Counted from the stretch's first letter, positions 15,788-26,940 are shown. The stretch is 36,640 bases of DNA from an uncultured Flavobacteriales bacterium (GCA_937873385.1 CALMYC010000099.1:1-36640), one strand, 5' to 3'. Made by a program: numbers and translations. The notes: generated by a model not told the origin, from the letters alone.

Positions 15788-16372
15788 ATGAACTTTTTAG
15801 GCCATCTTCTCGTATCCGGGAATGACCCCTTGGTGATCGTTGGCAATTTCATGGCCGACACTGTCAAAGGGCGTGACTTGTCCGGCTGGTCCGCCGGGCT
15901 TCAAAGGGGAATCCGGATGCATCGCATGATCGACAGCTACACGGACAACCACCCGCTCACCTTGATCGGCCGGGAGCGCTTGCGTGCGCACTGCGGAAAA
16001 TATGCGGGCGTGGCATTGGACCTGTTCTATGACCATGTTATAGCCAGCCAGTGGGGGCTGCTGGGCCCGGAGCCCCTGCCCGCCTATGCCCGGCACATGT
16101 ATGCGTTGCTGGAAGAACATGTCCAGGAGATGCCCGCCCGAGCGCAACACTTGTTGGGTTACATGTCCCGCAATGATTGGTTGGGCTCCTATGCCACGAT
16201 CCCCGGCATTGCCCGGGCGCTTTCCGGCCTTTCCGTGCGCGTGCCCGGAGGAGAAGTTCTCCAAGATGCCGAAAGCGTCCTCATTGCGCACCGATCTGAA
16301 TTTACGGAAGAGTGCATGCAATTCCTTCCTCAACTGCAAGCCCACTTAACCGAAGCAAATGCGTACGGCTGA
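15788..16372 (+). CDS. acpH: Acyl carrier protein phosphodiesterase
   Basis: A 194-residue member of the AcpH family, which removes the 4'-phosphopantetheine arm from acyl carrier protein. The order of metal-site residues fits the family: VGNFMADTVKGR (Asp24), GIRMHRMIDSYTDNH (His45, Asp49, His55) and LDLFYDH (Asp78, Asp82, His83). The N-terminus MNFLGHLLVS is also typical. Family members belong to the HD-like metal-dependent phosphohydrolases. Bacteroidota copies are often annotated this way without direct proof of ACP as substrate. The 3' end overlaps the transglycosylase gene by 14 bases. Confidence 0.9.
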   Translation: MNFLGHLLVSGNDPLVIVGNFMADTVKGRDLSGWSAGLQRGIRMHRMIDSYTDNHPLTLIGRERLRAHCGKYAGVALDLFYDHVIASQWGLLGPEPLPAYARHMYALLEEHVQEMPARAQHLLGYMSRNDWLGSYATIPGIARALSGLSVRVPGGEVLQDAESVLIAHRSEFTEECMQFLPQLQAHLTEANAYG

Positions 16373-17762
16373 ACTGATCGGTACAGGCTTGTTCGCCGCC
16401 TTGCTCGCCGTGCCTGCGGCGTGGAAGCCCGCGAATACCGGGCAGTTGCACCGGGATGAGAGCACCAAGCGGCCGCACGTGGCCAGGGACCTCGGTGAGA
16501 TCAATCGCGATACCCTTCGTGTGCTTGTGATCCGAGATCCGTTGACTTGGGAAGTGCGCACCGGAGCGATGACAGGCTTGGAATGGGAGCTGTTGGTGCG
16601 CTTCGCGAAGCGGCGGCATGTTCCGATCAAGGCAGTGCCCGTGGCCAGCCGCGATTCCATGCTGCTGATGCTGCAGAACGGGCAGGGCGACGTGATCGCC
16701 GCACAGCTTTCCGCCAACGGCTGGGCTTCGCCGAACTGTCATACAACGCAGCCATACCGCCGTGTGGCCCACGCCTATGCCAGGCCCCGCCCGGATGCGA
16801 AACAGGAAGGCCGAAGCGCAGGGGTTGATACGATCACCGTAAGCGCCTGGTCTTCATTTTTGGACAGCGCCGGGCGCTTGGCATTCGGGGAAGGCAAGGT
16901 TCCTTACCGGATCGTGGACAGGCTCCCTGCGGAGCTGCTGATCGCGACCGCGTTGGGCGGGCATGGGCCCTTGCTGGTCAGTGATGCGACCGCGGCGATG
17001 GAGGCCAAGCGGTTGCCCTTGGTGCAATTCGGGCCCCGGGAAGGAAGGTCTACTGCGCTGGTGTTCGCGGTGCGGACCAACGCACCCCACTTGCAACATG
17101 CACTGGACACATGGCTTGCCTCCGGCAAGGAGAAAGCGGCCCGTGATGCACTGATCGCCGCATACGACAACGGTTTGGACACCCGCGGGCCGCAACGTTC
17201 CTTCCGGGCCTTCACCATGGGCACCGACACCATTTCACCGTACGACAGCCTTTTCCAGGTCCATGCGGACAGCTTGGCGTGGGACTGGAAATTGCTTGCG
17301 GCCGTGGCATACAAGGAATCACGGTTTGACACTGCCGCAGTTTCAAAGGCCGGTGCGGGTGGCTTGATGCAAATGATGCCCACAACGGCAGCGCTGATGG
17401 GCGTGGCCAGCAGTGGCGGGGTTGATGCGCATATTCAAGGTGCTTCACGCTACTTGGCACGCCTGGACCGGATCTGGCAAGCCGACATCCCCTCTTCCAG
17501 CCAACGCTTGAAGTTTGTATTGGCGGCCTACAACGCCGGTCCTGGCCATGTAAAGGATGCCCAGCGCCTGGCAAAAGAGCTTGGCCTGAACCCATTGCGC
17601 TGGGACGACAATGTGGAGCGGGCCATGGTGCTGCTGAACCGCCCGGCCTATTTCAACCAACCCGGTGCCCGATCGGGGTATTGCCGTGGACAGGACACGT
17701 ATTGGTATGTACGTGACGTACTGAACTTGTTTGCCTGGCTGCGTGGCAAGCAGCCTTCCTGA
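16359..17762 (+). CDS. MltF-like membrane-bound lytic transglycosylase
   Basis: A 467-residue exported enzyme that cleaves peptidoglycan glycan strands with formation of 1,6-anhydromuramic ends. After a signal sequence (about 4-21), residues 50-275 form a solute-binding-protein-like domain (LRVLVIRDPLTWEV, then ELLVRFAKRRHVPIK), as in MltF. The SLT catalytic domain follows at about 295-455. It has LLAAVAYKESRFDTAAVSKAG with the catalytic Glu320, GGLMQMMPTTAALMG, and AAYNAGPGHVKDA. No lipobox is seen, so it may be soluble in the periplasm. The ATG at 16359 lies inside the acpH 3' end in another frame. A strong terminator follows 19 bases after the stop. Confidence 0.92.
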   Translation: MRTAELIGTGLFAALLAVPAAWKPANTGQLHRDESTKRPHVARDLGEINRDTLRVLVIRDPLTWEVRTGAMTGLEWELLVRFAKRRHVPIKAVPVASRDSMLLMLQNGQGDVIAAQLSANGWASPNCHTTQPYRRVAHAYARPRPDAKQEGRSAGVDTITVSAWSSFLDSAGRLAFGEGKVPYRIVDRLPAELLIATALGGHGPLLVSDATAAMEAKRLPLVQFGPREGRSTALVFAVRTNAPHLQHALDTWLASGKEKAARDALIAAYDNGLDTRGPQRSFRAFTMGTDTISPYDSLFQVHADSLAWDWKLLAAVAYKESRFDTAAVSKAGAGGLMQMMPTTAALMGVASSGGVDAHIQGASRYLARLDRIWQADIPSSSQRLKFVLAAYNAGPGHVKDAQRLAKELGLNPLRWDDNVERAMVLLNRPAYFNQPGARSGYCRGQDTYWYVRDVLNLFAWLRGKQPS

Positions 17763-17781
17763 ACAAGGAGGTGCCATGAAA

Positions 17782-17809
17782 AAGCCCCTTCCGATGCCGG
17801 AAGGGGCTT
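17782..17809. terminator. Bidirectional terminator between convergent genes
   Basis: A perfect 12-base-pair stem (17782-17793 with 17798-17809) with the loop ATGC, preceded by an A-run and followed by TT. It serves the transglycosylase gene on the left and the LPP20-type lipoprotein gene on the right. Confidence 0.85.
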
Positions 17810-17832
17810 GTCCTTTGCACACCTTGCGGTAC

Positions 17833-18426
17833 TTAGTGTGCCATCTTCTCCATTTCCTTGTCAAAGGTCTCCTTGAACTTCTCGTAATCATAGTCGATCT
17901 TCAGCTTGTCATCCTTGCTGAGCCGGTCGTTGTAGGCGGCCAACAGGTCCTGTGCACTGAGCTCGATGGCCACATAGCACTTGTAGTTCCCCGTGGTGTT
18001 CACCTTCATCATCTTTTCACAGATGGTCTTGGTTCCGGTGAGCTGCTGGTTCACCACCTCGCGGGCGAGGCTCTCATAGCGCTCTGCAGCCTCTTCCTTG
18101 TTGTTCATTTCGCGGCTGTTCACATAGTTGTCGACCACGGCTTTCACCTGGGTGTTGATGGCGCTGGCCATGTCGGCACGGGCATTGGAGAGCGCCTTCT
18201 TCTTGGCTGTGGCCTGGTCCATGCTTTCGCCCAGGTTGTTGGCACGGAAATTTTTCTCATCCGTAAAGAATTCAGGGCCTGAGCAGAGCACCTTCACTTC
18301 TGTTTCGCCACTGGGCGGGGCCGCGGCCTCAGCGGCTTTCTTCTTGCTTTTGCACGCGCTGAACCCGCCCACCAGCATCAGGGCGATCAGGGCGTAGCTG
18401 GAAAATTTGGCGGTAACGGTTTTCAT
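17833..18426 (-). CDS. Small LPP20-type lipoprotein
   Basis: A 197-residue lipoprotein. The signal peptide ends with the lipobox Gly-Phe-Ser-Ala-Cys (Cys25), followed by a basic Lys-Ser-Lys-Lys-Lys stretch and an Ala/Pro linker. The mature part contains a KALSNARADMASAINTQVKAVVDNYV helix region and a VNTTGNYKCYVAIELS segment, the pattern of LPP20/FlgP-like domains, where Ala-rich helices precede a short beta hairpin. The C-terminus is a charged helix. LPP20 proteins are outer-membrane lipoproteins; in Vibrio and Helicobacter relatives they assemble in rings or support motility (family knowledge). It is the last gene of the CsgG/LPP20 cluster but has its own TACTTTGC box 55 bases upstream. Confidence 0.72.
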   Translation of the reverse strand: MKTVTAKFSSYALIALMLVGGFSACKSKKKAAEAAAPPSGETEVKVLCSGPEFFTDEKNFRANNLGESMDQATAKKKALSNARADMASAINTQVKAVVDNYVNSREMNNKEEAAERYESLAREVVNQQLTGTKTICEKMMKVNTTGNYKCYVAIELSAQDLLAAYNDRLSKDDKLKIDYDYEKFKETFDKEMEKMAH

Positions 18427-18481
18427 GTTCTTCGTTTTAGGTGGTTTCCGGTTGTTGCTTTCCAAAGACGTGCCAAAGTGT

Positions 18482-18489
18482 GCAAAGTA
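18482..18489 (-). promoter_or_regulatory. -7 promoter element of the small LPP20-type gene
   Basis: TACTTTGC on the minus strand lies just before the stop codon of the upstream gene (18493) and 55 bases from the ATG, leaving a leader of about 50 bases, the longest in this window. Confidence 0.45.
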
Positions 18490-18492
18490 GCG

Positions 18493-19902
18493 TCAATGCC
18501 GGAGAACGGAATTGATCAATGCAGGCGCCACCTCATTCCGCATCTCCGCCGCGGCTTTCTTGTAGGCATCCAGCCCGGCCTTGGCATAATCCAGTTGAAT
18601 GCCCTTGAGCCCCTGTTTCCCCCCGGCATAGATCACTTCACTGGTCTTCCGGTCCCGGGCTTTCACGGTTTCATCCAACGCCACGGTGAAGAAGCCGTTG
18701 CTCTCCCCCATCCCGCGGGTGTCCGCGGAGACTTCAACGAGCAGGTCGGCATCCGCGTCACGGTCCACCTCGCGGAAGCCTTGGGCTGTCAGTGATTCCC
18801 TGATCGCCATGGCCAATGGGGCCTCTGCCATGGGCTTGCCCAAGTTGCTCTCACCGCCCCCCAACTTGAACTTCGGCATTACCCTTTCGATGGGCACCCG
18901 TGTCTCAGGAACGGTGAGGCTGCCGATCAGCGGCTTGGTGAACGAGGGATCAAGGTCTTTGCCCACCAGGGCTTCCGCATCCAACCGCACCACAAGTTCA
19001 AGGGTTCCAGTGCCGGCCTCGGGGCGCTCCACGGTGGTCCGGGCCCTGCCATCGGCATCCGTACTGCGGCTTTCGGAAAACTTGCCTCCCTGTCCGGGGT
19101 ATTCCACAGTGATCGGCAATTGTGCCAGGGGGGTTGAGCTACCGGTGAAGCTCGCGGTGATGAGCAACTGCCTTGCATAGCGGTTGGACCAATCCAGCAC
19201 GCACCGTTCAGGGATCACGGCAAGCCGTACGCCGCTGGCCATTTTCTGCAGTTCATTGAAGAGTTCGTTGGCCAAGGGGAAAGATCTCCCGTCCACCGTG
19301 GCCAGGTCGCTCTCGCCCCAATGATCCTTCATCGCCACCAGTCCGCGCAGGTCCAGGTCAAACGCACTTTTCAGGTCACCCATGGCCAAGGCGGTCTTCG
19401 CCCGGGAGTACATGTCCGTGGCCTGGTCCATGGCTTGTTGCTTGCGCTGTGCCTTGAGCCGGGCATATTCCGCCTTGTTGAGCCGGTAGTAGGTCCAGTA
19501 GGTGGTGCCGTCGTTGTAGCTGTCCACCAGCTCAAATCCTTCGATCCGTTCCTTGGTGCTCGTGGCAATGGTGCTGGTGAACTCTTCGTCAAACTTGTAC
19601 TTTCGGTCCAAGGTGTACAACAGGCTGTTTCCTTGCACGGTCACGCTGATCTCACTGGCCAGGTCGTTCAACGCATTTTTCTTGGCGGTTTCCTGGAAAT
19701 CCGCACGTGCCACCGGACAGGAACCGATACCGATGTAGTTCGCATCCGTAACAGGCCGCGACGTTACCCACGCCGGGCGGTCCGGTGCGGCAAGGACCTG
19801 TTTTTCCTCCTGGTGCAGGGCTTGCTTGGACCGGCAACCCGTGAAGGCCAGGAACAAGCCCACCCCAAGAAAAGCAAAATGGCCGGGGAACCTGCCTCTC
19901 AT
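18493..19902 (-). CDS. Large LPP20-domain lipoprotein
   Basis: A 469-residue lipoprotein with lipobox Ala-Phe-Thr-Gly-Cys (Cys23). Residues about 42-155 form an LPP20-like domain: RPAWVTSRPVTDANYIGIGS, then an Ala/Asn-rich helix (ETAKKNALNDLASEISVTVQ) and a WTYYRLNKAEY hairpin. About 155-230 is helical. The rest contains a carboxypeptidase-regulatory-like strand block at about 265-320 (PLAQLPITVEYPGQGG, then DADGRARTTVERP) and a C-terminal alpha/beta region with DADADLLVEVSADTRG. This architecture suggests an outer-membrane-anchored assembly factor, with no enzymatic residues visible. Its ATG overlaps the CsgG-like gene stop by four bases, so the two are translated together. Confidence 0.75.
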   Translation of the reverse strand: MRGRFPGHFAFLGVGLFLAFTGCRSKQALHQEEKQVLAAPDRPAWVTSRPVTDANYIGIGSCPVARADFQETAKKNALNDLASEISVTVQGNSLLYTLDRKYKFDEEFTSTIATSTKERIEGFELVDSYNDGTTYWTYYRLNKAEYARLKAQRKQQAMDQATDMYSRAKTALAMGDLKSAFDLDLRGLVAMKDHWGESDLATVDGRSFPLANELFNELQKMASGVRLAVIPERCVLDWSNRYARQLLITASFTGSSTPLAQLPITVEYPGQGGKFSESRSTDADGRARTTVERPEAGTGTLELVVRLDAEALVGKDLDPSFTKPLIGSLTVPETRVPIERVMPKFKLGGGESNLGKPMAEAPLAMAIRESLTAQGFREVDRDADADLLVEVSADTRGMGESNGFFTVALDETVKARDRKTSEVIYAGGKQGLKGIQLDYAKAGLDAYKKAAAEMRNEVAPALINSVLRH

Positions 19903-21281
19903 GGCAATTTGGCCGCGAGCTCCTGTTCAATGGTTTTCGCCATCGCCGAGGAAGTGTTGCGGAGCAATTGGTTGCCCAAGTCCAGGGTGGACTTCACTGT
20001 TCTGGGGGCGGCCAGTAGAGCGTTCAGTTCGCGCCGCGCCGAGCCGTTGGTGTTCACGGTGCCGTTCTGCATGGGGAGCAGCGCGGAAGCATTTCCATCA
20101 TAGGTCGCATACCAGGCGTGGTCGTCAGCTTGCTGGTCCACCACTTTGCTGAGCAGCACTTGGCCGGTTTCCAGTGAAACCAATTTGTAGCTGAAGGAGA
20201 TCTTCGCCTTGTTTTCCTGGTACAGCTCCGTGTATTTCACGGGGCGGTACTTGGTGAGGTAGGTGACCTCATTGGTTTCCTTGTCCACTTCCTTCACCTG
20301 GTAACTCTCATAGCCGTCCTTGGTGCTTCTGCGCAGCCGACCGGCATCCTCCCCGTAGGCCATCACATTGCCCATGACCACAGCCTTCGCCCCGAGGAGT
20401 TTACCGGCACTGACCGCCGTGGATTCATCCACTACACCGCTCATGCCCAACTTCTGTTCATCGAGGATCTTTTGCATGTTATCCCGGTCCACCACCTGGA
20501 TGAATGGATCATTGGCATCCACGATCGCGGAGATGACGTAGGCCTGCAATGTGGCGGCCTGCGCGGTCAAGGCCGGGCTTGCACCAGGAACACTGAAGGG
20601 CAGCACCGCAATGGCGTACCGGCCCTTGTCCACGCATTGCTGCTTCAGTGCCGCAGCATCCTTGTACACTGCGTTTGCGGCTACCACATTGTCAAATTTG
20701 CCGTAGGCCAAACGGAATTGCCCGGAAGCCAATGCTTGCTTACCAGCCAGGTAGAGAGGCTCCAAATAGGCGATCTGCTGCAGGCTGCCCGCATCCTTGT
20801 ACCCCGGTTCCAACTTCGCGATCTTGCCGAAAACGGTTTCAGCGGCGGCGTAGTCCTTCCCGTCCAGCAGGTCGTGCCCTTGGGTGTACAGTTGAACAAG
20901 GTACTCGCCCTTCACCTGCTTGTAATCCTGTGCGTAGCTATCCGGGACCTCCAACATAACGCCGGCCCGCTGCACCCGGTCCTGGTAGTCTTTGGCGGCC
21001 AAGTACGCATTGACAGCGGCCTCTTTGTCGTCCCCCACGCCAAATGCCTTGAAGAAGTTGCCCAGCTTATCGTTCAGCACCATCTGGCCGGTTTTCTTGA
21101 GGCCTACTTTGGCATCGATGTTCCGGGCGTTGCGTACGGCACTTTGCAAGTACATGTCCGCAGCCTCGGCATACATGCCGGCCTGGTCCAGTTTGGAAGC
21201 CTTTTTGGAAAAGGACCTGGAGCCTGAACAGGCAGCCAGCACCAACACCCCTGCGGCCAATGCGAAATACGGCGCTTTCAT
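19899..21281 (-). CDS. CsgG-domain lipoprotein
   Basis: A 460-residue lipoprotein with lipobox Val-Leu-Ala-Ala-Cys (Cys18). Residues about 25-215 are helical and repeat-like (AEAADMYLQSAVRNAR, AAETVFGKIAKLEPGYKDAG, AYGKFDNVVAANAVYKDAA), resembling tetratricopeptide units. From about 220 the CsgG/HfaB-type domain begins: GRYAIAVLPFSVPG, VDRDNMQKILDEQKLGMSG and SAGKLLGAKAVVMGNVMAY, followed by a beta-rich part with Thr/Tyr-rich strands. CsgG forms the outer-membrane secretion pore of curli; many distant relatives are accessory lipoproteins with no secretion role. No curlin gene (CsgA/CsgB) or CsgE/F is visible. The gene starts 27 bases after the DUF4476 gene and leads the two LPP20-type genes. 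Confidence 0.85.
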   Translation of the reverse strand: MKAPYFALAAGVLVLAACSGSRSFSKKASKLDQAGMYAEAADMYLQSAVRNARNIDAKVGLKKTGQMVLNDKLGNFFKAFGVGDDKEAAVNAYLAAKDYQDRVQRAGVMLEVPDSYAQDYKQVKGEYLVQLYTQGHDLLDGKDYAAAETVFGKIAKLEPGYKDAGSLQQIAYLEPLYLAGKQALASGQFRLAYGKFDNVVAANAVYKDAAALKQQCVDKGRYAIAVLPFSVPGASPALTAQAATLQAYVISAIVDANDPFIQVVDRDNMQKILDEQKLGMSGVVDESTAVSAGKLLGAKAVVMGNVMAYGEDAGRLRRSTKDGYESYQVKEVDKETNEVTYLTKYRPVKYTELYQENKAKISFSYKLVSLETGQVLLSKVVDQQADDHAWYATYDGNASALLPMQNGTVNTNGSARRELNALLAAPRTVKSTLDLGNQLLRNTSSAMAKTIEQELAAKLP

Positions 21282-21308
21282 TCGCTGGTGGGCGGTTTCC
21301 GTAGCGGA

Positions 21309-22286
21309 TCAACGGCTTTGGATGTACTTGTTCAGCTCATCCACGGAGCTGGAGAATCCGAACGCGTCGTTCACCTTGTAATAGTTGTTCCGGTCGCTAA
21401 CATGGTCATAGGCGAATTTGGCGAAATCCAGCTTGCTGTCCTCATAGCCAAAGAGGCCCATGATGGCCTTCACTTGGGCGGATGAGAAGCAGTTGCTGCC
21501 ACCGACCTGCTTGGCCAGGGTAAGCTTGGTATCCTCAAATCCCTTGTCACTGATGCTGGCCACGGCTTCGTTGAATTCCGCCGCGGTCATGGGCTGTGTG
21601 CATCCTGATCCGAAAGGCGGAGCATCAACCACCACCGGACCGGGTGCAACCTGCTCCTGAACGGAGTTGAACGAGGAGGAAGAGCTTGTCGTGGTGGTGG
21701 TCGTTGTCGTGGTCATCGTACTGGTTGCGGTTCCGCCCATGCCGTCGTTCACGGCCAAGCTCACCCCCGTTCCGTTCACATCCATGTTGACGTTGACATT
21801 CCCACCGGGCGTGCCGCTGGTGGTGGTAACCGAGGTGGTTTGCTGCACCGACCGGCCCGTCACCGGGTCCGTGCCGATGACTTCCGCATTGGCAGGCGCA
21901 TCATCCTTGAAATTGGTGGGCACGGGCCTATCCGACGCACTGGAGGGCGATGTGCCCAACGGAGCCTGTCCCTGCATGCGCAACACGCGTTGGCCTTTTT
22001 TATTGGTGGTAATGCGCAGGGTGTATTCCAAGCCGGGTTCCATCCACCCGTTTTGCTTCAGTGCAGGAATGGCCGGATCGGAGAAATTCACCACCAACAA
22101 AGGCGTGGCGTTCTTGATCCCCCGGGCTTCCACCCGTGCGGCTGGCTGGGCATTCCGGGTTACGCCGTCCACCAAAAGTGTGAACGTCTCCCCTGCGTCG
22201 GAGAATACGATGATATCGCTTGTTTGCGCCAGCAGACCGGGGATGTTGAGGAGCGTTGCAAGTGCGAGGGCGGAAAAATGCTTCAT
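21309..22286 (-). CDS. Secreted DUF4476-domain protein
   Basis: A 325-residue protein with a 20-residue signal peptide ending Gly-Leu-Leu-Ala before Gln-Thr-Ser. Residues about 23-105 form a beta domain that includes DIIVFSDAGETFTLLVDG and PLLVVNFSDP, typical of the N-terminal part of Bacteroidota DUF4476 proteins. A low-complexity linker (about 150-215) is rich in Asn, Thr and Ser and contains nine consecutive Thr followed by five Ser. The C-terminal DUF4476 domain (about 233-325) has FEDTKLTLAKQV, VKAIMGLFGYEDSKLDFAK and FAYDHVSDRNNYYKVNDAF. Function is unknown. It is probably the first gene of the CsgG/LPP20 cluster and has a TACTTTCG box 19 bases upstream. Confidence 0.86.
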   Translation of the reverse strand: MKHFSALALATLLNIPGLLAQTSDIIVFSDAGETFTLLVDGVTRNAQPAARVEARGIKNATPLLVVNFSDPAIPALKQNGWMEPGLEYTLRITTNKKGQRVLRMQGQAPLGTSPSSASDRPVPTNFKDDAPANAEVIGTDPVTGRSVQQTTSVTTTSGTPGGNVNVNMDVNGTGVSLAVNDGMGGTATSTMTTTTTTTTTSSSSSFNSVQEQVAPGPVVVDAPPFGSGCTQPMTAAEFNEAVASISDKGFEDTKLTLAKQVGGSNCFSSAQVKAIMGLFGYEDSKLDFAKFAYDHVSDRNNYYKVNDAFGFSSSVDELNKYIQSR

Positions 22287-22313: not shown

Positions 22314-22519
22314 ACGTTGTCCCCCATAGGCAAGTGTTGTGCCACAGACCCCGGGGCGCGGGCGGCAAGCAATGACGCGCGATCCGCCAGGTCTCCTTGC
22401 AATCCATGCCAGCACTGAACTTCCGGCGCCGGGTCCACCGGTGCCAAGGCCTCCCCTGCCGCCGGAACCATGCACCGACCGTTCATGTAGGGCACCACGT
22501 GCAACGGCCCGGTCCGGAA

Positions 22520-22527
22520 TACTTTCG
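22520..22527 (+). promoter_or_regulatory. -7 promoter element of the ABC efflux operon
   Basis: TACTTTCG followed by CACACC, 13 bases before the ATG at 22541. It excludes the longer in-frame start at 22397. The 200 bases between it and the divergent promoter hold no gene I can support. Confidence 0.5.
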
Positions 22528-22540
22528 CACACCGGTCAGC

Positions 22541-23242
22541 ATGCTGCAATTGAAGAACATCCGGAAGGCCTACCGCATGGGGGCCAATACCCTCCACGTG
22601 CTCAAAGGCATTGACCTGCATGTGACCACGGGGGAAATGGTGAGCATCATGGGTTCATCCGGCTCCGGAAAAAGCACGTTACTGAACATCATCGGGTTGC
22701 TGGACAATGCGGACAGCGGGGAATACCTGCTGGACGGCATGCCGATCCGGGACTTGACCGAAACACGCGCCGCTGAACTCCGCAGCAAATACATCGGATT
22801 CGTGTTCCAGAGCTTCAATCTCATCTCCTTCAAGAATGCCATGGAGAATGTGGCCTTGCCGCTCTACTATCAAGGAGTAAGCAGCCGCAAGCGGAACGAG
22901 ATGGCCGTGGAAATGCTGGCCAACGTGGGCCTGAAGGACTGGGCACACCACATGCCCAACGAAATGAGCGGCGGCCAGAAACAGCGGGTGGCCATAGCGC
23001 GCGCCCTGATCTCCAACCCGAAGGTGATCCTGGCGGACGAACCCACGGGAGCACTGGACAGCACCACGAGCGCCGATGTCATGGACCTGCTTGGCAAGGT
23101 GAACAAGGACCTGGGCATCACGCTGGTGATCGTGACCCACGAACCCGAGGTGGCGAGGCTCACCCAGCGTGTGATCCGCTTGAAGGACGGCGAGATCGAG
23201 AGCCATGACGGTGAACCCTTGATCGAAGAGGCCCATGTTTGA
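22541..23242 (+). CDS. MacB-type ABC transporter ATPase
   Basis: A 233-residue ATP-binding subunit of the MacB/LolD-like class. The Walker A motif GSSGSGKST (about 38-46), Q-loop region FVFQSFNLIS, ABC signature MSGGQKQR, Walker B VILADEPTGALDS and the switch His in IVTHEPEVA are all present, so it should be active. The DEPTGALD form is characteristic of the MacB/LolD group. These ATPases drive mechanical pulling by their permeases, either to push substrates through an outer-membrane TolC channel or to extract lipoproteins. The gene overlaps the first permease by 8 bases and heads a four-gene operon. Confidence 0.95.
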   Translation: MLQLKNIRKAYRMGANTLHVLKGIDLHVTTGEMVSIMGSSGSGKSTLLNIIGLLDNADSGEYLLDGMPIRDLTETRAAELRSKYIGFVFQSFNLISFKNAMENVALPLYYQGVSSRKRNEMAVEMLANVGLKDWAHHMPNEMSGGQKQRVAIARALISNPKVILADEPTGALDSTTSADVMDLLGKVNKDLGITLVIVTHEPEVARLTQRVIRLKDGEIESHDGEPLIEEAHV

Positions 23243-24479
23243 CCGCGAGAAATGGGCGGAGATCTTCGACACCATCGGCAAGAACAAATTGCGGACGGTG
23301 CTCACGGGGTTCAGCGTCTTCTGGGGCATCTTCATGCTCATCATCCTGCTGGGCACGGGCCAAGGGCTCAGCAACGGCTTCAGCTACAACTTCCGCAACA
23401 CCGCCAAGAACACCATCGACCTTTGGGGAGGGCAGACCACCAAACCCTGGCAGGGGCTGGCCGTGGACCGGGACATCCAGCTTGACATCCACGATGTGGA
23501 GGCACTGCGCTCGGCCATTCCCGGGCTGAAGCACATCACGGGCAATTTGCGCGTGTGGCGGGGCCAGAGCCAGTTGAGCAGGGGGGAGAATTACGGCAAC
23601 TTCACCATCAGCGGGATAACGCCCGAGTTCACCCAACTCCAGGACCAGGTGATCGTGCAAGGGCGGTTCATCAACCAGATGGACCAGCTCCACACCCGCA
23701 AGGTGATCGTCCTGGCGGAAGATTCACGCGATGCCCTGTTCAAAGGGGAGGACCCGATCAACCAGTGGGTGCAGGTGAACAACATCCCGTTCCAGGTGGT
23801 GGGCGTGTACCGTTTCGAAAGCAGTGGCCGCGGCATGAACCAGAACAGCCAGGTGTTCATTCCGTTGAGCGTGGTGCAGCGCGTTTTCAACGCCCAGCAG
23901 AACGTGGACAAGATCACGTTCAGTTTTACCGACGGGTCCCTTGCAGGCTCGGAGCAGGCGGAGAAGAGAGCGGTGGCCGTACTGGCCGCTCGGCACCGTT
24001 TCGACCCCAAGGACGACCGCGCGGTATACGTGAACAACAACGTGGAAAATGCGGAAACCTTCGGCAAGGTGTTCGGCGGCATCAATGCCTTCCTATGGAT
24101 CATCGGCATCGGCACCATTGTGGCGGGCATCGTGGGCGTCAGCAACATCATGTTGATCACCGTGCGTGAACGCACCAAGGAGATCGGCATCCGCAAAGCG
24201 CTGGGGGCCACCCCAGCCAACGTGGTGGGCCAGGTGATCATGGAAGCCGTGTTCGTGAGCGCCATGGCGGGCTACTTTGGCCTGGTGTGCGGGGTGGGCC
24301 TGTTGGAATTCATCGCCAGCCATGTGCCGGGCAGCCAGATGTTCCGCAACCCGTCCGTGAACCTGGGCACCGCGCTTTGGGCCACGGCCGTGCTGGTGGT
24401 GGCAGGTGCGCTGGCGGGCCTGATCCCGGCGCGCAAAGCGGCTGCCATCCGCCCCATCGAAGCCTTGCGGGATGAATGA
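23235..24479 (+). CDS. MacB-type ABC transporter permease 1
   Basis: A 414-residue permease of the MacB/FtsX superfamily. An N-terminal amphipathic stretch and first membrane helix (KLRTVLTGFSVFWGIFMLIILLG) are followed by a large periplasmic MacB-like domain of about 220 residues. Three C-terminal helices close the protein (about 285-310, 335-360 and 375-400). RERTKEIGIRKALGATPANV, the coupling helix that contacts the ATPase, lies between the second and third helices. The C-terminus IPARKAAAIRPIEALRDE is typical. It overlaps the ATPase gene and is a paralogue of the next permease, with which it probably forms a heterodimer. Confidence 0.93.
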   Translation: MFDREKWAEIFDTIGKNKLRTVLTGFSVFWGIFMLIILLGTGQGLSNGFSYNFRNTAKNTIDLWGGQTTKPWQGLAVDRDIQLDIHDVEALRSAIPGLKHITGNLRVWRGQSQLSRGENYGNFTISGITPEFTQLQDQVIVQGRFINQMDQLHTRKVIVLAEDSRDALFKGEDPINQWVQVNNIPFQVVGVYRFESSGRGMNQNSQVFIPLSVVQRVFNAQQNVDKITFSFTDGSLAGSEQAEKRAVAVLAARHRFDPKDDRAVYVNNNVENAETFGKVFGGINAFLWIIGIGTIVAGIVGVSNIMLITVRERTKEIGIRKALGATPANVVGQVIMEAVFVSAMAGYFGLVCGVGLLEFIASHVPGSQMFRNPSVNLGTALWATAVLVVAGALAGLIPARKAAAIRPIEALRDE

Positions 24480-24543
24480 GGAAGAAGAAATGAAAAGCGA
24501 AAGCCGAACGTTGAAACAGGAAGGTTGACAGAAGGAAGCCGTG

Positions 24544-25788
24544 ATGTTCGATAGTGAGCGCTGGAACGAGATCTGGATGACGCTGAGCCGCAACAAGCTG
24601 CGCAGCGGGCTCACCATGTTCGGGGTGTTCTGGGGCATCTTCATGCTGGTGATCATGCTGGGCATGGGCAAGGGCCTGAGCAATGGCGTCATGGGCGGAT
24701 TCAGCGGCTGGGCCACCAACAGCTTCTTCATGTGGACCCAGAGCACCTCGATGCCCTATGCGGGATTCAAGCGTGGCCGGCACTTCAACTTCGACAACGG
24801 CGACATTGCCGCCATCAAGTCCGTTCCGGGCGTGGACAAGGTGGCCCCGCGGTTGCAGCTCGGCGGCTATCGCGGAGCCAACAACGTGAACTACAAGAAC
24901 AAGTACGGTGGCTTCAGTGTGAACGGCGACCTGCCCGATGTGCAGTTTTTCAAGCCCTCCACCATGGCCACCGGGCGTTTTCTCAATGCCAAGGACATCC
25001 ACGATGAACGCAAGGTGTGCGTAGTGGGCCCGGATGTGGTGCAAACCCTTTTCGGCCTGGAGGACCCCTTGGGCAAGTACATCCGGATCCAAGGCGTCTA
25101 CTTTGAAGTGGTGGGCATCTTCAAGCCCTCGGCCAGTGCCATGCATGATGACGGCGAGGGCAGCACCATCTACATTCCGTTCTCCACCTTTCAAAAGGCC
25201 TTCAACAGCATGAACCAAGTACACTGGTTCAGCATAAGCGCAAAACCGGACGTAAAGGCCGCCGTGGTGGAGGAGCGGGTAAAAGAGCTGATGGCCAAGC
25301 GCCACAAGGTGGACCCCAACGACCCGCTTGCATTCGGCGGCTTCAACCTGCAGGACATGTTCGACCAGATGAGCATGCTTTTCGTCGCCATCACCGCATT
25401 GAGCTGGTTCGTGGGCATCCTCACCTTGGTTGCCGGCGTGATCGGCATCAGCAACATCATGCTGGTGATCATCAAGGAGCGCACCAAGGAGATCGGTATC
25501 CGCCGGAGCCTCGGGGCGCGGCCATCCAACATCACCGGACAGATCATGCTGGAAGCCATGACGCTCACTTTCATTGCAGGCTATTTCGGGTTGGTGGCCG
25601 GTGTCGGGGTCCTGCAACTCATCAACGGCATGCACATCAGCTCGGGATTCTTCACCAATCCGGAAGTGAGCCTGCGCGTGGCGCTGACTGCATTGGGCGT
25701 CCTTATTGCCAGCGGCCTCATTGCGGGCTGGGTGCCTGCCCGCCGCGCCCTTAGCATCAAACCCGTGGACGCGCTCCGCGCCGAATAA
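24544..25788 (+). CDS. MacB-type ABC transporter permease 2
   Basis: A 414-residue paralogue of the preceding permease, of equal length. The two share the first helix motif (KLRSGLTMFGVFWGIFMLVI), the coupling helix (KERTKEIGIRRSLGARPSNI) and the C-terminal PARRALSIKPVDALRAE. The periplasmic domains are more diverged (FKPSASAMHDDGEGSTIYIP in this copy), as expected for two halves of a heterodimer with different partners. The ATG at 24544 is preferred over the GTG three bases earlier. It lies 64 bases after the first permease, and that gap holds only a 12-codon frame. Confidence 0.93.
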   Translation: MFDSERWNEIWMTLSRNKLRSGLTMFGVFWGIFMLVIMLGMGKGLSNGVMGGFSGWATNSFFMWTQSTSMPYAGFKRGRHFNFDNGDIAAIKSVPGVDKVAPRLQLGGYRGANNVNYKNKYGGFSVNGDLPDVQFFKPSTMATGRFLNAKDIHDERKVCVVGPDVVQTLFGLEDPLGKYIRIQGVYFEVVGIFKPSASAMHDDGEGSTIYIPFSTFQKAFNSMNQVHWFSISAKPDVKAAVVEERVKELMAKRHKVDPNDPLAFGGFNLQDMFDQMSMLFVAITALSWFVGILTLVAGVIGISNIMLVIIKERTKEIGIRRSLGARPSNITGQIMLEAMTLTFIAGYFGLVAGVGVLQLINGMHISSGFFTNPEVSLRVALTALGVLIASGLIAGWVPARRALSIKPVDALRAE

Positions 25789-25821
25789 ACCAACCGATCA
25801 TCCGCGAAAAACGGAAACCGC

Positions 25822-26940
25822 ATGAAACGCATCCTCAAATACGTGATCCTGGCCCTGCTCGCATTTTTATTCATTTGGACGCTCTGGTTCCTCTACCAAA
25901 AAAGCGTGACCAAACCGGCGGACTTCCAGGTTGTGAAGCCCAGGACAGCCACCATCGTGAAGAAGACGGTGGCAAACGGGACCATTGAGCCGCGGCAGGA
26001 AATCGACATCAAGCCCGTGGTGAGCGGCGTGATCCGCGAACTGTTCGTGGTGGCGGGGCAGAAAGTGCAGAAGGGCGATCAGCTGGCCACGATCCAAATC
26101 GTGCCGGACATGCTCTCACTGAGCCAGGCTGAGAGCCGCGTGAGCAGCGCGGCGATCGCGCTGAACAATGCACAACTGAACTACGACCGCAACAAACCGC
26201 TTGCGGACAAGGGCGTGATAGCGGCCAGTGAAATGCAGACCTTCGACATGGCGCTGCGCAACGCCAAGCAGGAGCAGGATGCCGCGCAGGATGCCTTGCA
26301 ACTGGTCCGCGATGGGATCAGCAAAAGCAGCAAAGGAGCAACCAACACCATCGTGCGCAGCACCATCACCGGCATGGTGCTGGACGTGCCGATCAAGGTG
26401 GGCAGCAGCGTGATCGAGCGCAACAACTTCAACGAAGGCACCACCATCGCCACCGTGGCGGACATGAACGACCTGATCTTCAAGGGCAACGTGGACGAGA
26501 GCGAGGTGGGCAAGGTGCGCATCGGCATGCCCGTGGTGATCACCGTCGGCGCCATCGACAGCGCCACCTGGGACGCCAACCTGGAATACATCGCGCCGAA
26601 AGGCGTGGAGACCAACGGCGCCATCCAGTTCGAGATCCGCGCCGCAGTCAAGGTAAAGGAAGGCCAAACGCTCCGCGCCGGATACAGCGCCAATGCGGAC
26701 ATTGTGCTGGCCAGGCGCGACAGCGTGCGGTCCATACCGGAAAGCGTGATCGAATTCAATGAAAAGGGCGACAGCGCGTTTGTGCAGGTGAAGGATGGGA
26801 AAGCGTGGAAGAGAACCTACGTCCATACCGGCCTTAGCGACGGGGTGAACATCGAGGTGCTGGGCGGCGTTGCAGACACCACCACGCTTAAAGGGGCCCT
26901 GAAGATCGCGGAGGAGGAACACCATGGGCCGCGGATGTAA
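25822..26940 (+). CDS. MacA/HlyD-type periplasmic adaptor protein
   Basis: A 372-residue membrane-fusion protein. After a membrane anchor (about 5-25), the domains follow the usual order. They are a barrel-sandwich/lipoyl half (VVSGVIRELFVVAGQKVQKGDQLATI), an alpha-helical hairpin (about 97-160, Gln/Asn/Ala-rich with LADKGVIAASEMQTF), the second lipoyl half (RSTITGMVLDVPIKVGSSV), a beta-barrel and a C-terminal membrane-proximal domain. It would link the inner-membrane permeases to an outer-membrane channel; no TolC-like gene lies in the window. Its position after the ATPase and the two permeases completes a MacAB-like efflux set. The substrate is not readable from sequence. Confidence 0.93.
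   Translation: MKRILKYVILALLAFLFIWTLWFLYQKSVTKPADFQVVKPRTATIVKKTVANGTIEPRQEIDIKPVVSGVIRELFVVAGQKVQKGDQLATIQIVPDMLSLSQAESRVSSAAIALNNAQLNYDRNKPLADKGVIAASEMQTFDMALRNAKQEQDAAQDALQLVRDGISKSSKGATNTIVRSTITGMVLDVPIKVGSSVIERNNFNEGTTIATVADMNDLIFKGNVDESEVGKVRIGMPVVITVGAIDSATWDANLEYIAPKGVETNGAIQFEIRAAVKVKEGQTLRAGYSANADIVLARRDSVRSIPESVIEFNEKGDSAFVQVKDGKAWKRTYVHTGLSDGVNIEVLGGVADTTTLKGALKIAEEEHHGPRM

Follow-up and report, generated by a model that had tools for sequence, protein, structure and literature searches.

Three lipoprotein genes clustered in the analysed window, a stretch of 36,640 nucleotides from an uncultured Flavobacteriales bacterium, are kept together across many families of flagellum-less Bacteroidota, which suggests that their products contribute to a shared envelope assembly that has not been described so far. 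We consider it probable that the trio, a CsgG-domain lipoprotein, a large LPP20 lipoprotein and a small LPP20-like lipoprotein, forms one such assembly. The best explanation of the data as a whole, which we hold with slightly less than even confidence, is a periplasmic assembly anchored to the outer membrane, possibly a ring or collar, while a ring shape of the shared assembly is a distinctly more tentative proposal. The parts belong to known families, and the gene set itself is without a published description that we could find: literature searches, with most subscription papers and preprints lying outside them, returned no account of the cluster, and in the passages considered from the Bacteroidota BAM paper CsgG was named solely in the reference list.

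Results

The cluster consists of four minus-strand genes transcribed in the order DUF4476, CsgG lipoprotein, large LPP20 lipoprotein and small LPP20-like lipoprotein. The first gene (21309–22286) encodes a secreted protein of 325 aa with a Sec signal and a C-terminal DUF4476 domain (Pfam PF14771, 2.1e-22). The next one (19899–21281) specifies a lipoprotein in which a TPR-like helical domain (residues about 19–220) precedes a CsgG/FlgT-middle/PelC-type domain (220–460; Pfam CsgG, 4.7e-14, and AlphaFold). The large LPP20 lipoprotein (18493–19902) is predicted to have four parts, an LPP20/SHS2 domain (41–154; Pfam LPP20, 4.7e-10), a helical hairpin (143–190), an Ig/MG4-like domain (223–341) and a CsgG/PelC/FlgT-like domain (342–469), as delimited in its AlphaFold model, and the cluster ends with the gene of the 197-aa small lipoprotein (17833–18426). 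The intergenic distances are 27, −4 and 66 bp in the order of transcription, the CsgG stop codon and the start codon of the large LPP20 gene sharing the ATGA at 19899–19902 in a 4-base overlap. A terminator-like stem-loop on the minus strand (17770–17832; −34 kcal/mol, z −5.4) follows the small lipoprotein gene and, lying between convergent genes, may serve both of them, even though it was missing from the results of a simple consensus terminator scan.

Three of the four family labels (DUF4476, CsgG and that of the large LPP20 protein) lie above the curated Pfam cut-offs, with 52.6 bits versus 20.8 for PF03783, of which the CsgG protein is the only match in the genome, and 40.2 versus 25.9 bits for PF02169 (LPP20) in the large protein. 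The small protein stays below the latter cut-off (17.1 versus 25.9 bits, E 0.0074). Its label rests on a profile–profile comparison (hhalign) with the LPP20 domain of the large protein (probability 83%, E 9.5e-6), in which it matched none of the other cluster domains, and it is thus probably a remote relative of this domain. The original prediction of four exported proteins in one leftward cluster was right in genes, boundaries and descriptions, and of the two LPP20-type lipoproteins it named, the large one stands, while the label of the small one is weaker than had been claimed.

The cluster faces an MltF-like lytic transglycosylase gene with a solute-binding domain (16359–17762, plus strand) and, on the other side, divergent plus-strand genes for an ABC-transporter-like ATPase, two MacB-like permeases and a membrane-fusion-type protein (22397–26940). 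Neither the divergent ABC/MacB genes nor the MltF gene were retained as candidate partners of the cluster, since of the 18 wide genus loci only about half have the ATPase/MacB flank, and about half the MltF/ACP-phosphodiesterase flank. A scan for defence systems found none.

All 18 wide genus loci contain the four genes in an unchanged order, while the flanking genes vary, and a CsgG protein match was detected in 44 of 45 genus genomes, one of which (G044) has only a paralogue-level match and a fragment. For the class, an even sample of 346 genomes was surveyed, where E of about 1e-20 or better was taken as a strong match. By this criterion 82 genomes carry the CsgG protein, 79 the small and 75 the large protein, while all three are present in 70 genomes, distributed over about 12 families. 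The conserved neighbourhood that the original prediction required was found within the genus, and the trio itself well beyond it. The CsgG and large genes were adjacent in 46 of 46 loci and the large and small genes in 80 of 83 loci where both members were seen, which, together with the invariant order in the genus, indicates that the clustering exceeds chance. Pairwise Fisher tests of co-occurrence gave p values of 1e-52 to 1e-68 (1e-42 to 1e-57 with the genus left out), but these are uncorrected for shared ancestry and therefore overstate independence. More telling is that in three families (f10, f11 and f67) all three genes are kept in the same genome though scattered on the chromosome.

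The latter observation bears on the possibility that there is no joint machine, and that these are separate envelope-maintenance lipoproteins co-transcribed for general outer-membrane integrity or stress. Their domains do have fold relatives such as TolB-N, LptE and GNA1162, and clustering of the conserved neighbours yielded mostly housekeeping genes (saccharopine dehydrogenase, RimM and succinate dehydrogenase), besides a divergent lipoprotein gene in Cytophagales. However, the very tight three-way co-presence even where the genes are unlinked argues for a joint function, and independent roles are, in our judgement, unlikely.

The make-up of the set is not fixed everywhere. The tightest pair is formed by the large and small proteins, which share 74 genomes. 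The CsgG protein stands alone in 10 of the sampled genomes, and in family f14 the LPP20 pair occurs without the CsgG protein, a pattern whose loci are mostly labelled Cytophagales or relatives; thus, a three-part composition is not universal. A PF03783 search detected no CsgG protein in two of the three f14 genomes with the LPP20 pair, but the same model fails to detect some true orthologues as well, for example in G257. The small protein is the most conserved member, with 57–65% identity across families (alignments A4 and A7); scanning genome contigs with its alignment retrieved hundreds of loci, and a phylum-wide scan indicated that it is essentially confined to the class. DUF4476 heads the cluster also in four loci of other families (L097, L098, L110 and L192) and adjoins the CsgG gene in 27 of the 99 loci examined, so it is a companion limited to the genus and a few other families and lies outside the core.

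Several further arrangements were seen during the survey. Thirty Cytophagales-type loci (e.g. L140:5829-6455) have no CsgG gene; upstream of their large LPP20 gene lies a conserved divergent lipoprotein gene, whose product of about 170 aa contains the motif PVHLHLG. A second, diverged small LPP20-like paralogue is present in the same genome (G000:C310:1488-1988, locus L212) and in many relatives, and the other trio genes were not adjacent to it in the loci looked at. Two MAGs with a Bacteroidales label (L195:6950-14979 and L156:7971-16102) have the small lipoprotein gene at the head of another series of genes with a comparable layout; in L195 this series encodes, among others, a DUF5683-like protein (sub-threshold match) and a protein with CARDB and caspase (C14) domains. 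A separate CsgG arrangement of the class was found in L116 (G065:C78), where two CsgG-domain proteins of about 509 and 699 aa are encoded back to back, and similar paired matches occur in families f15, f19 and f22.

Gliding relies on outer-membrane lipoproteins, and the trio could accordingly be part of the type IX secretion (T9SS) and gliding machinery; a gliding assembly was among the possibilities that the original prediction had raised. Nearly all trio genomes are SprA-positive. The converse does not hold, however, as SprA was found in 337 of the 346 genomes and the trio in about 70, so that most SprA-positive genomes lack it, and no T9SS gene occurs among the conserved neighbours. Since the distribution of the trio does not follow that of the nearly universal SprA, it is no core part of this machinery, and membership in it appears very unlikely.

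The position of the trio in the envelope can be predicted from the residues behind the lipid cysteine. The surface-export signal of Bacteroidota consists of acidic residues directly after this cysteine (PMC5080379). Among 88 orthologues of the three lipoproteins, a few of whose cleavage sites are mis-assigned by the simple rule applied, not one has two acidic residues at this place, and the small protein is lysine-rich just after the cysteine. Lacking the export signal, the lipoproteins should face the periplasm, and their predicted location is the inner face of the outer membrane. At the level of sequence, then, the trio is jointly encoded, carries lipoboxes, lacks the surface-export signal and is inherited together.

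Structures were predicted with AlphaFold as monomers, using the sequences of the window and of the fetched loci only. The model of the CsgG protein (pLDDT 87) contains TPR-like helices, in agreement with the repeat-like helices noticed originally, followed by a CsgG-type domain with long strands. The best structural relatives of this domain are XCC0632 (DUF330), FlgT (3w1e, Z 14.5), PelC (5t11, Z 13.3), CsgG (6lqh, Z 12.5) and TolB-N. In the large protein (pLDDT 83.5), fold matches were obtained to Lpp20 (5ok8, Z 11.0), CsgG (6lqh, Z 11.0), PelC (Z 10.6) and FlgT (Z 10.1), and its C-terminal domain is predicted to be CsgG/PelC/FlgT/LptE-like (Z about 10–11). Two of the three lipoproteins thus carry, by prediction, CsgG/PelC/FlgT-middle-type domains, the large one having an Lpp20/SHS2-fold domain as well. 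For a single modelled domain, Z near 11 is good, though not exclusive; the CsgG/TolB-N fold also occurs in TolB, LpoB and LptE, which are not ring proteins. Two conserved segments were poorly predicted (pLDDT <50), residues 267–295 of the CsgG protein (72% mean column identity) and about 89–117 of the large protein (61%), and this would fit segments that fold only in an oligomer.

The fold of LpoB, a peptidoglycan-synthase activator (4q6l) that is likewise an outer-membrane lipoprotein, is shared by the CsgG domain, and the cluster might therefore encode LpoB/LpoA-like regulators that span the peptidoglycan to activate cell-wall synthases or hydrolases. The TPR-like domain is reminiscent of LpoA, a lytic transglycosylase of the MltF type is encoded convergently next door, and the LpoB families PF13036 and TIGR02722 gave matches (0.015 and 0.0032, respectively). 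Both matches missed their cut-offs (15.6 versus 22.3 and 17.5 versus 110.55 bits), however, and the cluster protein is larger in architecture than LpoB. The MltF gene adjoins the cluster in 9 of 18 genus loci and does not recur as a conserved neighbour beyond the genus, while the LPP20 pair would be left unexplained. Regulation of this kind is an unlikely explanation, if one that deserves some weight.

The original prediction also allowed for a pore. In that case a CsgG-type outer-membrane channel, with accessory rings formed by the LPP20 proteins, could export a small protein such as DUF4476: the CsgG protein is above the Pfam cut-off, has the same core fold (Foldseek 7.8e-6 to CsgG 4uv2) and long predicted β-hairpin strands, and the gene directly upstream encodes a secreted protein. 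Comparison with E. coli CsgG (K-12 sequence) was less favourable. The hairpin equivalent to TM1 (residues 314–358), which is present in the AlphaFold model, has 16 charged residues of 41 (39%) as against 6 of 36 (17%) in E. coli CsgG and is 24–40% charged in the orthologues. Its best membrane-facing side scores 0.30 versus 0.56 in CsgG by a crude measure, in which some orthologues are higher, so that this comparison no more than leans against a membrane-spanning hairpin. On inspection, the constriction loop, the aromatic residues of which are Tyr51 and Phe56 in mature E. coli CsgG, is absent, the corresponding segment (PFSVPGASPALTAQAATLQAY) being shorter and devoid of the aromatic pair. In addition, the CsgG channel has no counterpart of the N-terminal TPR-like domain, curlin (PF07012) was not matched in the genome, the assembly of which is 95% complete, and DUF4476 accompanies the CsgG gene only in the minority of loci given above. 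The missing constriction loop, the charged hairpin and the lack of curlin make a curli-type channel unlikely, and we regard secretion through such a pore as quite improbable.

Discussion

Considering these results, the preferred explanation remains a periplasmic assembly of the trio anchored in the outer membrane. Its core would be formed by the large and small LPP20 proteins, a pair that some Cytophagales retain in the absence of the CsgG protein, and the TPR–CsgG lipoprotein would join this core as a partner. The modules may oligomerize, perhaps as a ring or collar like those of FlgT, FlgP or PelC, and the assembly may brace or dock an outer-membrane machine that is not encoded nearby, with the secreted DUF4476 protein as an accessory in some lineages. 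A ring or collar is the most attractive form that such an assembly could take, rather than a demonstrated one. The still more specific idea, that the trio builds a stand-alone outer-membrane ring or collar in Bacteroidia, independent of flagellum and curli and made from SHS2 and CsgG-like modules as in the H/T rings of Vibrio, is speculative. If it is true, rings of this kind exist as independent envelope machines that flagella have also recruited. Orphan outer-membrane complexes are visible in Bacteroidota by cryo-tomography, and a small, well-conserved and probably tractable set of ring-module genes without a flagellum would be a concrete candidate for them. The trio could also help to trace the origin of the accessory rings around flagellar motors.

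Independence from flagellum and curli, as envisaged originally, agrees with the data: besides the empty curlin search, the single flagellar marker searched for, FlgH, was not found in the genome, and the trio is conserved in about 12 families of the class. The suggested relatedness to ring proteins also held at the level of predicted folds, the parts resembling FlgT, PelC, CsgG and Lpp20, a group that includes several ring-forming proteins.

Among known systems, the Lpp20 operon of Helicobacter pylori, which holds HP1454 and HP1456 (PMC11756786), similarly combines a multi-domain LPP20 protein with a small LPP20 lipoprotein. The large protein matches HP1454 by PDB profile (4kzs, E 0.0011) and HP1456 (Lpp20) by fold (see above). 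In contrast to the cluster, the operon has no reported CsgG–TPR partner, HP1454 is said to be a secreted protein of three domains and the phylum is different. Deletion of Lpp20 caused no motility or barrier defect (PMC11756786), a caution against reading a ring from the Lpp20 fold alone. In Campylobacter jejuni FlgP, another fold relative, ring formation goes with a β-hairpin insert after the SHS2 helix (PMC12222027); at the corresponding site of the large protein (89–117) the monomer model has no confident hairpin.

PelC, which forms a dodecameric outer-membrane ring in the Pel exporter, resembles the domains of both the CsgG and the large LPP20 protein in fold, but is itself short, single-domain and part of a polysaccharide exporter, and no Pel gene occurs among the conserved neighbours examined. 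The closest parallel is offered by FlgT, the H/T-ring protein of Vibrio (3w1e, 8z5n). None of the cluster proteins matched the curated FlgT or FlgP family models (E up to 1), and, unlike FlgT, the large protein is a lipoprotein with an extra Ig-like domain in a host without FlgH. Nevertheless, the CsgG-like middle domain of FlgT was recovered in the fold comparison with both the CsgG protein and the C-terminal domain of the large protein, which gives the FlgT analogy of the original prediction structural substance, although its best fit is the large LPP20 protein rather than the CsgG protein. FlgT also has an SHS2 fold (PMC12222027), and the large LPP20 protein appears, by its model, to pair the same two module types that FlgT combines, an SHS2/Lpp20-like and a CsgG-like one.
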